Shown piece by piece: positions 37,176 through 39,263 of a stretch of DNA of 64,000 bases (positions are counted from its first letter, which is position 1; every line of letters begins with the position of its first letter). Below the pieces are notes generated by a model. It searched no databases. It saw only the letters and a program-made list of their open reading frames with translations, and was not told where the DNA came from. The position numbers were made by a program, and so were the translations under genes. Source of the DNA: Hydrogenophaga sp. (GTDB lineage Bacteria; Pseudomonadota; Gammaproteobacteria; Burkholderiales; Burkholderiaceae_C); NCBI RefSeq assembly GCF_026125785.1, contig NZ_JAHCKL010000001.1:190949-254948 (forward strand), given 5' to 3'.

Positions 37176-37222
37176 TCGCCTTTGTGACTCGAATCAGCAA
37201 GAACGAGAAAGGCAATCTGGTT

Positions 37223-37264
37223 ATGACACCGCGAACTATGGAGCGCACTACCACGGCCTCATGA
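37223..37264 (+). CDS. Threonine-rich leader peptide of thrS attenuator
   Basis: A 13-codon reading frame, [13 protein letters not shown], ending in TGA at 37262-37264. Five of its 13 residues are threonine (codons ACA, ACT, ACT, ACC, ACG), three in a row, with a GAAAGG ribosome-binding region about 10 bases upstream. Its stop lies inside the first half of the attenuator stem. The composition is what a charged-tRNA-Thr sensor upstream of threonyl-tRNA synthetase needs. Too short for routine gene callers. Confidence 0.8.
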
Positions 37265-37340
37265 GGCCTGCAGATCGCGCCTGCCTGTTCCCCTGTTCTC
37301 GACCCATCCAAGCGCGGCCTCTGCCGCGCTTTTTTGTTTT
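37255..37340 (+). promoter_or_regulatory. thrS transcription attenuator (alternative hairpins with intrinsic terminator)
   Basis: Segment 1 GGCCTCA (37255-37261) and segment 2 TGAGGCC (37262-37268) form a perfect hairpin over the leader peptide stop. Segment 2 is also complementary to GGCCTC (37316-37321) in the 5' arm of the terminator. The terminator AAGCGCGGC/GCCGCGCTT with T6GTTTT occupies 37311-37340. A ribosome stalled on Thr codons would cover segment 1, free segment 2 to pair with the terminator arm, and let RNA polymerase reach thrS. Confidence 0.82.
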
Positions 37341-37355
37341 CCGGACGACCCTACC

Positions 37356-39263
37356 ATGTTGCACATTACGCTCCCCGACGGCTCCCAGCGCGAATTCCCC
37401 GGCCCGGTTACCGTGGCCGAAGTCGCCGCGTCCATTGGCTCCGGTCTGGCCAAGGCTGCATTGGCCGGCAAGATCGGTGACAAGGTGGTAGACACCAGCT
37501 ACCGGATTACCGAAGACAGCCCCTTGTCCATCGTGACCGCCAAGGATGCCGATGGCCTGGAGGTCATCCGCCATTCGACCGCCCACCTGTTGGCCTACGC
37601 GGTGAAGGATCTGTACCCGGACGCACAGGTGACGATCGGGCCGGTGATCGAGAACGGCTTCTACTACGACTTTTCGTACAAGCGTCCCTTTACGCCAGAG
37701 GACTTGGCCGCCATCGAGAAGCGCATGGCCGAACTGGCCGCGAAAGATGAGCCCGTGGTGCGCCGGGTCTTGCCGCGGGACGAAGCGGTGTCCTATTTCA
37801 AGGGCCTGGGCGAGCACTACAAGGCCGAGATCATTGCCAGTATCCCGAGCAATGAAGAGGTGTCTCTTTACCGCGAGGGTGCCTTCGAAGACCTTTGCCG
37901 TGGTCCTCACGTGCCCAGCACGGGCAAGCTCAGGCACTTCAAGCTCATGAAGGTGGCAGGAGCGTACTGGCGCGGTGACCATCGCAACGAAATGCTTCAG
38001 CGCATCTACGGCACGGCCTGGGCCAGCAAGGAAGACCTCCAGCAATACCTGACGATGCTGGAGGAAGCCGAGAAACGCGATCACCGCAAACTGGGGCGCG
38101 AGCTGGACCTGTTCCATATGGAGGAAACCGCGCCGGGCCTTGTGTTCTGGCACCCGAAAGGCTGGACGGTATGGCAGGTGGTGGAGCAGTACATGCGAGC
38201 CGTCTACCGCGACAACGGTTACCAGGAAGTCAAAGGTCCGCAGATCCTGGACAAGAGCCTCTGGGAGAAGACCGGCCATTGGGACAACTACCGCGACAAC
38301 ATGTTCACGACGGAATCGGAGAAGCGCGAATACGCGCTCAAGCCGATGAATTGCCCCGGTCATGTGCTGATCTTCAAACAGGGCATCAAGAGCTACCGGG
38401 ACCTGCCTCTGCGCTACGGCGAGTTCGGCCAATGTCATCGCAACGAACCCAGCGGGGCGTTGCACGGCATCATGCGGGTGCGAGGGTTCACGCAGGACGA
38501 TGGACACATTTTTTGCACCGAAGACCAGATCCTTGAAGAATGCATTGCCTACACGGCTCTGCTGCAGAAGGTCTATGCCGACTTTGGCTTCAAGGACATC
38601 ATCTACAAGGTGGCGACGCGTCCCGAGAAGCGTGTGGGCTCCGACGCTTTGTGGGACAAGGCCGAGTTCGCGGTGATGGAGGCTTTGCGCCGTTCGGGTT
38701 GCGAATTCATCGTCTCGCCGGGCGATGGCGCCTTCTACGGCCCGAAGATCGAGTACACGCTCAAGGATGCGATCGGCCGGCAGTGGCAATGCGGCACCAT
38801 GCAAGTGGATTTCAATACCGCCGAACGCCTGGGTGGTGAGTACGTGACGGAGACGAGCGAGCGCGCCCATCCCGTGATGCTGCACCGGGCCATCGTGGGC
38901 AGCCTGGAGCGTTTCATCGGTATTCTGATCGAGCAGCATGCCGGGGCATTGCCCGCCTGGCTGGCGCCGGAGCAGGTGGCGGTGCTCAACATCACCGACT
39001 CACAGGCTGATTACTGTCGTGAAATCGCAAAAACGTTGCAGAATCAAGGGCTTAGGGTCACGATCGACCTGCGCAACGAGAAAATTACGTATAAAATACG
39101 GGAGCACGCGTTGCAAAAGCTGCCTTTCATTCTGGTCGTGGGCGACAAGGAGAAGGCCGCTGGCGCCGTGGCTGTGCGGGCCCGAGGCAACAAGGATCTC
39201 GGGGTCATGCCGTTGGAAGCCTTTTCCAAACTGATTGCGGCAGACGTTTCATCCAAGGTTTGA
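37356..39263 (+). CDS. thrS: Threonyl-tRNA synthetase
   Basis: A 635-residue class II synthetase. The N-terminal TGS domain ([24 protein letters not shown]) is followed by the editing domain with [12 protein letters not shown] and, later, the zinc-binding histidine/cysteine residues. The catalytic core has [44 protein letters not shown] (motif 2) and [35 protein letters not shown] (motif 3). The C-terminal anticodon-binding domain ends [17 protein letters not shown] ([14 protein letters not shown]). It heads a translation operon and is controlled by the upstream attenuator. Confidence 0.98.

Follow-up and report, generated by a model that had tools for sequence, protein, structure and literature searches.

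Ribosome-mediated transcription attenuators of Escherichia coli include the thr, his, trp, leu and ilv leaders as well as that of pheST. Textbook control of thrS, the gene for threonyl-tRNA synthetase (ThrRS), is either of the E. coli operator type, in which tRNA-like hairpins over the ribosome-binding site are bound by ThrRS, or of the Bacillus T-box type. A threonine leader peptide before thrS has been described in the thrL-thrS locus of Streptomyces lividans (PMC8079986). A wide survey of attenuators mentions ThrRS autoregulation in E. coli, its main text being without the word "thrS" (PMC2965389), and the thrS of PMC2330054 concerns an unrelated sequencing correction. Within the literature searched, which included the accessible text of PMC4833913 and had most subscription papers outside its reach, no thrS leader peptide was recognised in Beta- or Gammaproteobacteria. 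Here we describe a threonine-rich leader frame followed by an intrinsic terminator directly in front of thrS in a 64,000-nucleotide stretch of Hydrogenophaga sp. (NZ_JAHCKL010000001.1, positions 190,949–254,948; hereafter the window, within which all positions are counted), and argue that the two very probably constitute a thrS transcription attenuator worked by a ribosome on the threonine leader peptide.

A threonine leader and a terminator precede thrS

In the window, thrS occupies positions 37356–39263 of the + strand, on which all features located below lie. Upstream of it, at 37223–37264, is a leader frame of 13 codons and a stop (ATG ACA CCG CGA ACT ATG GAG CGC ACT ACC ACG GCC TCA TGA), with threonine (Thr) at codons 2, 5, 9, 10 and 11, the last three being consecutive. 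The terminator scan located AAGCGCGGCCTCTGCCGCGCTT TTTTGTTTTC at 37310–37331, a hairpin of 9 base pairs (bp), 7 of them GC, which with its U-run extends over 37310–37335, and the thrS ATG at 37356 lies 16 nucleotides (nt) past the T-rich run. The preliminary description of this DNA had read both the leader with its five Thr codons and the terminator just ahead of thrS in the same way. The scan of 601 bases found 1 terminator versus a mean of 0.4 in shuffled sequences, a count that is unremarkable by itself; what settles the observation, which we consider confirmed, is the comparative evidence from the family and the order rather than the terminator count alone. Strong terminators number 8 across both strands of the 64-kb window (6 on + and 2 on −), and, frames nested in the leader aside, they are preceded by one further frame having 3 or more Thr within 5 codons (ending at 54451, start codon TTG).

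The alternative structures involve four segments. Segment 1 (CGCGAACT, 37230–37237) runs from the end of codon 3 to codon 5 and holds the codon pair CGA-ACT (37232–37237). Segment 2 (37263–37280), which in folds forms the 5′ side of an antiterminator, comprises GAGGCC at 37263–37268 and CGCGC, an element that recurs among relatives, at 37276–37280. Its partner, segment 3 (AAGCGCGGCCTC, 37310–37321), is the terminator 5′ arm plus part of the loop, and the terminator is the 3:4 hairpin. Over the stop codon, the palindrome GGCCTCATGAGGCC (37255–37268) is perfect; the GGCCTCA/TGAGGCC hairpin proposed earlier has, when folded, a stem of 5 bp (GGCCT/AGGCC, with the loop CATG) instead of 7 bp, and it tops the 1:2 structure.

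The region upstream of thrS has no Rfam match at gathering score, and the five matches at E up to 10 are all far under their gathering scores, with no T-box among them; the one of lowest E (0.0081, the long non-coding RNA model Vax2os1_2) is taken as chance. Against this background, it appears exceedingly improbable that some other regulator, be it a T-box, a riboswitch or an unknown RNA, acts at the terminator, for which nothing speaks beyond the terminator itself.

The leader is conserved in the family

We sampled 100 genomes of the window's own family, one per genus, and identified thrS in all of them by the N-terminal 270 amino acids. The core TTATGACACCGCG[A/G]AC (TTATGACACCGCGNACN) is present in 79 of these genomes, once in each, compared with 0 matches for the reversed control. 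All 79 matches fall on the contig and strand of thrS, 113–204 nt upstream of it (median 144), and in all 79 genomes a terminator lies between the leader and the gene. The 79 leaders have 9–27 codons (median 13) and 2–7 Thr. Their longest Thr run is 1 in 13 leaders, 2 in 27, 3 in 28, 4 in 8 and 5 in 3, and hence at least 2 in 66 and at least 3 in 39; at least one further Thr occurs within codons 6–10 in 74 of the 79. Lack of conservation of the Thr run had been named beforehand as a refutation, and these counts speak against it. Among the 21 genomes without the exact core, reading by eye revealed a variant of the same leader in five (G164, G184, G187, G195 and G201) and a different Thr leader, MQIFRTSLPTS, in one (G191).

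Over its first 270 residues, ThrRS is 60–63% identical to that of the window in 12 of the 100 genomes (G163, G167, G169, G170, G197, G207, G210, G213, G220, G226, G228 and G242), versus 75–93% in the others; the exact leader core is nonetheless retained in 10 of the 12. This retention bears on the explanation that ThrRS binds the leader RNA and represses in the style of the E. coli operator, the Thr codons being secondary. Such a mechanism is established for E. coli thrS, and conservation of ATGACACCGCGAAC at the nucleotide level, exceeding what the peptide requires, might point to a site for protein binding. However, an E. coli-like operator would hardly fit over the thrS ribosome-binding site because only 16 nt are available between the T-rich run and the ATG, and the further Thr at codons 6–10 of most family leaders would not be needed for binding; with the core kept alongside divergent synthetases as well, we regard this explanation as very unlikely.

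Threonine leaders in named relatives and in two orders

A second set combined the best 80 of 588 thrS loci with the window, yielding 81 upstream regions. The pattern ATG AC? CC? CG? AC? (MTPRT, third bases free) occurs in 32 of them, which by record title include Comamonadaceae, Sphaerotilaceae, Oxalobacteraceae, Cupriavidus, Burkholderia, Paraburkholderia and unplaced Betaproteobacteria. In these 32 leaders, the codons are ACA in 32, CCG in 32, CGA in 31 (CGG in 1) and, at the last position, ACT in 24, ACG in 7 and ACC in 1. A quick tree of the 81 ThrRS requires 9 changes of the MTPRT label, and the starred branches force no fewer than 6 of these, indicating that MTPRT was gained or lost several times or that the pattern misses other leader forms. 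In the same tree, Aquincola and Variovorax fall within the family and some branchings are open, so that for the 12 family genomes with a divergent ThrRS we do not claim replacement of thrS by a foreign gene under a kept leader; either replacement or rapid change may lie behind the divergence. One locus on a contig labelled Alphaproteobacteria (L071) has an MTPRT leader of the Burkholderiales type and a ThrRS on a long branch; the contig is perhaps misbinned.

The order was sampled through 50 family labels. thrS was found in 148 of 150 genomes, again by the N-terminal 270 amino acids, and 100 upstream regions (L082–L181) were read. Scanning found a terminator in 61 of the 100, and frames in which 5 codons hold a minimum of 2, 3 or 4 Thr precede these 61 terminators in 34, 20 and 8 cases, versus 6.6, 0.6 and 0.0 in shuffled sequences. 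The leaders themselves vary widely (MFRTSTTTQS, MFKRTTTTRISR, MPRTRTTTGFFSRRG, MRPPTTSFTRLPG, VRTTTTHP and others). In 68 of the 100 order regions a tRNA lies upstream of thrS on the same strand, which with no more than one exception is Val(GAC), and over all 181 regions tRNA Val(GAC) is found in 92 and Asp in 1. In such loci, the leader is probably transcribed as the 3′ end of a tRNA transcript; the window has no such tRNA, its three tRNAs sitting elsewhere than near the thrS leader.

For a second order, a pattern derived from Lysobacterales and Rhodanobacter loci was searched in 370 genomes of the class and matched in 3, in all three 150–190 nt before thrS. A sample centred on one of the three contained thrS in 40 of 41 genomes, and 23 of the 30 loci read combine a frame having at least 2 Thr in 5 codons with a terminator, a count made without a shuffle control and of which a few are probably chance (L291 lies within a tRNA). 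In six loci of this order (L287, L290, L292, L293, L294 and L295), a small stem-loop was seen by eye upstream of the leader ATG, between CGTAG and CACGATCACC, with stem bases that change yet match (of the type GTTC..GAAC and CCCG..CGGG), and Lysobacterales-like loci display another conserved stretch, GGTGGCC...GACATG, likewise by eye. Either feature is possibly a ribosome standby site or a protein site.

Alternative pairings of the leader RNA

Pairings were scored as RNA duplex energies expressed as z against dinucleotide shuffles, the 2:3 pairing joining the terminator 5′ arm and loop to the sequence that starts at codon 8 and runs up to the terminator, and 1:2 joining leader nt 6–21 to that same sequence. 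In the 79 core-bearing family genomes both are stronger than in shuffles, with a mean z of −1.32 for 2:3 (Wilcoxon p 6e-14) and −1.26 for 1:2 (p 2e-11), p values that are too small because the sequences are related. The 2:3 pairing also surpasses shuffles in the 23 loci of the second order (mean z −0.61, p 0.007) and in a mixed collection of 78 frames drawn from all samples (mean z −0.88), which includes some chance frames (for example L018, L020 and L040, within the end of the upstream gene). Conservation of the stems, the other check proposed at the outset, thus finds support in the family; the pairing of segment 2 with the terminator 5′ arm, as expected of an antiterminator, is supported beyond it too, whereas 1:2 is not.

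The antiterminator first proposed, GAGGCC (37263–37268) with GGCCTC (37316–37321), is present and complementary in the window, but as a general form it had to be rejected, being found in only 2 of 79 genomes (the window and G196). The recurrent part is instead [T/C]CGCG, located at −2 to +20 from the stop, mostly at +2 or +8/+9, in 62 of the 79. In 40 of these 62, the base adjoining CGCG can pair with the one opposite it in the terminator arm, compared with 27.0 on permutation, and none of 5000 permutations was as high, a test uncorrected for the tree; the pairs are G-C in 22, T-A in 13, G-T in 4 and T-G in 1. The GGCC..GGCC arrangement flanking the stop is seen in L007, L008, L015 and L021 as well and is not general.

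The window RNA was folded under the assumption of a 13-nt ribosome footprint. If the ribosome sits at codon 9 or 10 while the terminator 3′ arm is still unmade, an antiterminator of −15.5 kcal/mol forms, in which GAGGCC (37263–37268) and GCGC (37277–37280) pair with GCGCGGCCUC (37312–37321). Since this fold uses both elements, the GAGGCC pairing and the recurrent CGCGC act together in the window. With the ribosome on codon 5 and the 3′ arm unmade, the antiterminator is built on CGCGC and coexists with the hairpin at the stop codon (−19.5 kcal/mol in total), and the corresponding values are −11.4 kcal/mol for a ribosome on codon 11 and −8.4 kcal/mol on the stop.

These data suggest the following course of events. 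Transcription would start ~40 nt before the leader, judging from a −10-like site, and a ribosome would trail RNA polymerase through the leader. When Thr-tRNA is ample, the ribosome would reach the stop and cover part of segment 2, so that hairpin 3:4 ends transcription. When Thr-tRNA is short, the ribosome would wait on a Thr codon, covering segment 1, and the freed segment 2 would pair with the terminator 5′ arm once this is made, whereby no terminator forms and thrS is transcribed. The tiny Thr-rich frame and the terminator would thus probably raise ThrRS output when Thr-loaded tRNA is scarce. Attenuation by ribosome stalling, as the preliminary description had it, is in this respect supported by the conservation and the family pairings, with charged tRNA-Thr as the presumed signal.

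Observations that weigh against attenuation

Several results do not sit easily with attenuation. In each of the four cases folded with the 3′ arm included (no ribosome, or a ribosome on codon 5, codon 11 or the stop), the optimal structure contains the terminator, so that the switch must be kinetic. Kinetic switching is usual for attenuators. Under the assumed footprint, moreover, CGCGC just escapes being covered by a ribosome that has reached the stop. For the window by itself, the 2:3 pairing is no stronger than in shuffles (z −0.35), 1:2 is no better than shuffles over the mixed 78 frames (mean z −0.19, p 0.28), and the next base out in segment 2 shows no covariation with the arm (39 of 62 versus 38.3). 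No terminator was found in 39 of the 100 order regions, and 27 of the 61 with a terminator have no frame with 2 Thr in 5 codons. Finally, reading by eye showed no leader in 15 of the 100 genomes of the family, which a simple form of the model does not anticipate, and 9 of these 15 retain a terminator by scan, suggesting that the hairpin may be kept for another reason.

One such reason would be an ordinary terminator, serving a co-transcribed tRNA or upstream gene, or a 5′ hairpin that stabilises the mRNA, with thrS expressed by leak-through and the leader incidental. The terminators kept without a leader, those of the order lacking a Thr-rich frame and the same-strand tRNA upstream of thrS in most order regions all fit this explanation. 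Against it stand the lack of a nearby tRNA in the window, the excess of Thr-rich frames before order terminators (34 versus 6.6 expected), the near-invariance of the family core and a pairing of segment 2 with the terminator arm that beats shuffles, and we consider it improbable.

The 15 leaderless genomes are small, with a median of 2.7 Mb versus 4.5 Mb in the other 85 (Mann–Whitney 7.6e-6, kinship being ignored). In the nine leaderless loci that retain it (L262, L263, L264, L265, L267, L269, L275, L280 and L281), the terminator before thrS is GCG-rich and lies in several of them a few tens of nt past a −10-like site.

A recurrent CGA-ACT codon pair

Within the family leaders, codon 4 is CGA in 75 of 79 and codon 5 is ACT in 70 of 79, whereas Thr past codon 5 is encoded by ACC 103, ACG 54, ACA 27 and ACT only 14 times. 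Neither codon is common in the window: in seven of its genes, 206 Arg codons include 10 CGA and 114 Thr codons a single ACT, while the window leader alone has ACT twice. In the order sample with tRNAs removed, CGAACT is the second most over-represented hexamer (26 of 100 regions versus 3.4 expected), the first, CGCACT, being part of the terminator. An Arg codon just before Thr is CGA in 23 of 26 order cases, the figure for the remaining Arg codons being 6 of 32 (Fisher 1.6e-7); the second order gives 11 of 14 versus 3 of 9, which is not significant (p 0.08). The Thr codon that follows Arg is likewise biased to ACT, with 18 of 26 in the order, versus 20 of 82 other Thr (9e-5), and 9 of 14 in the second order, versus 9 of 54 (9e-4).

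That CGAACT is kept for its pairing with segment 2 was supported in the window's own family and rejected as a general reason. Outside the family, a downstream complement of CGAAC with a length of 5 nt or more occurs in 7 of 20 leaders versus 7.5 in shuffles, and in the second order in 2 of 12 versus 1.1; being no commoner than in shuffles, such pairing does not explain CGA-ACT there. A GGTT/AACT hairpin around the leader start was dropped by eye, its outer pair being G-U at best and GGTT being missing in L043 and L052. The codon pair would rather seem to be a signal at the codon level, with the caveat that related leaders are not independent. CGA is read through an I:A wobble pair and slowly, the slowness being a point on which a search found no literature. 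With CGA in the P site while Thr is awaited, the ribosome might become unusually sensitive to the supply of Thr-tRNA, and because CGA-ACT recurs in leaders that otherwise share little, one may tentatively imagine, with more doubt than confidence, that the leaders hold a dedicated stalling dicodon, a fixed sensitiser kept across two bacterial orders. The pair furnishes a testable claim as to which codon pairs sensitise ribosomes to tRNA charging.

Transcription start and downstream genes

In 57 of the 79 family genomes, the leader ATG is preceded at a median distance of 50 nt by a −10-like site (5 of 6 matches to TATAAT, first base T), versus ~3 in mononucleotide-shuffled sequences. A start downstream of 37311 had been named beforehand as a further refutation; these sites would instead put the start ahead of the leader. 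The candidate −10 of the window, GATAAT at 37170–37175, begins with G and falls outside these 57; it is preceded by TGG, as in an extended −10, no good −35 was seen with it, and the promoter scan listed none. A probable ribosome-binding site of the leader, GAGAAAGG, is located at 37205–37212, and 62 of the 79 family genomes have the same sequence within the 45 nt that precede the start codon of the leader. In Cupriavidus metallidurans, a mapped thrS start with the −10 GTTATACTTG is listed under the tag Rmet_R0015, and a separate mapped start is listed for infC (PMC9045368), so that control of the downstream genes by the attenuator, which the preliminary description had held probable for infC-rpmI-rplT, may be partial. 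In C. necator (L046), the similar GCTATACTTG precedes the tRNA-Val that itself precedes the leader, and we infer that GTTATACTTG and GCTATACTTG are the same promoter.

By eye, the genes following thrS in the window are infC, rpmI, rplT, pheS and pheT, and the leader may stand at the start of a transcript that carries these translation genes. Between rplT (stop at 40756) and pheS (start at 40883), positions 40809–40860 form a strong terminator-like hairpin (AAAGGGGTTGAAGC...GGCTTCAATCCCTTTTTTG), and no Phe-rich leader is visible by eye before pheS.

Comparison with known systems

The kind of mechanism proposed here is known; the gene and the lineage are apparently new within the literature searched, and no Rfam model matches. 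A 2010 paper by Lopatovskaya et al. (Mol Biol 44:128, pmid 20198868), whose title concerns attenuation of aminoacyl-tRNA operons, may already predict part of these findings. Leader-peptide attenuation appears to be the commonest thrS control in the window's family and to be frequent in its order and in a second order.

Like the E. coli attenuators, the locus has a short leader rich in cognate codons, predicted mutually exclusive pairings and a terminator before the gene. Unlike them, it would control thrS, its family leaders span 9–27 codons (median 13) and share the recurrent CGA-ACT, and many relatives have tRNA-Val just upstream. The thrS operator of E. coli places the same gene under feedback, but there ThrRS blocks translation, with neither leader peptide nor terminator. 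With the Bacillus thrS T-box, the signal would likewise be uncharged tRNA-Thr and the output antitermination, although the T-box binds the tRNA directly and without translation, and no T-box match was found here. The thrL leader of S. lividans differs in belonging to an actinobacterium, in its peptide MKRVRPFLETTPGFVPAR with two Thr and in its leaderless start; its termination is called unclear by the authors, with one hairpin lacking a U-rich run (PMC8079986). Together with the E. coli operator and the Bacillus T-box, attenuation of the type proposed here would place one essential synthetase gene under at least three unrelated control systems.

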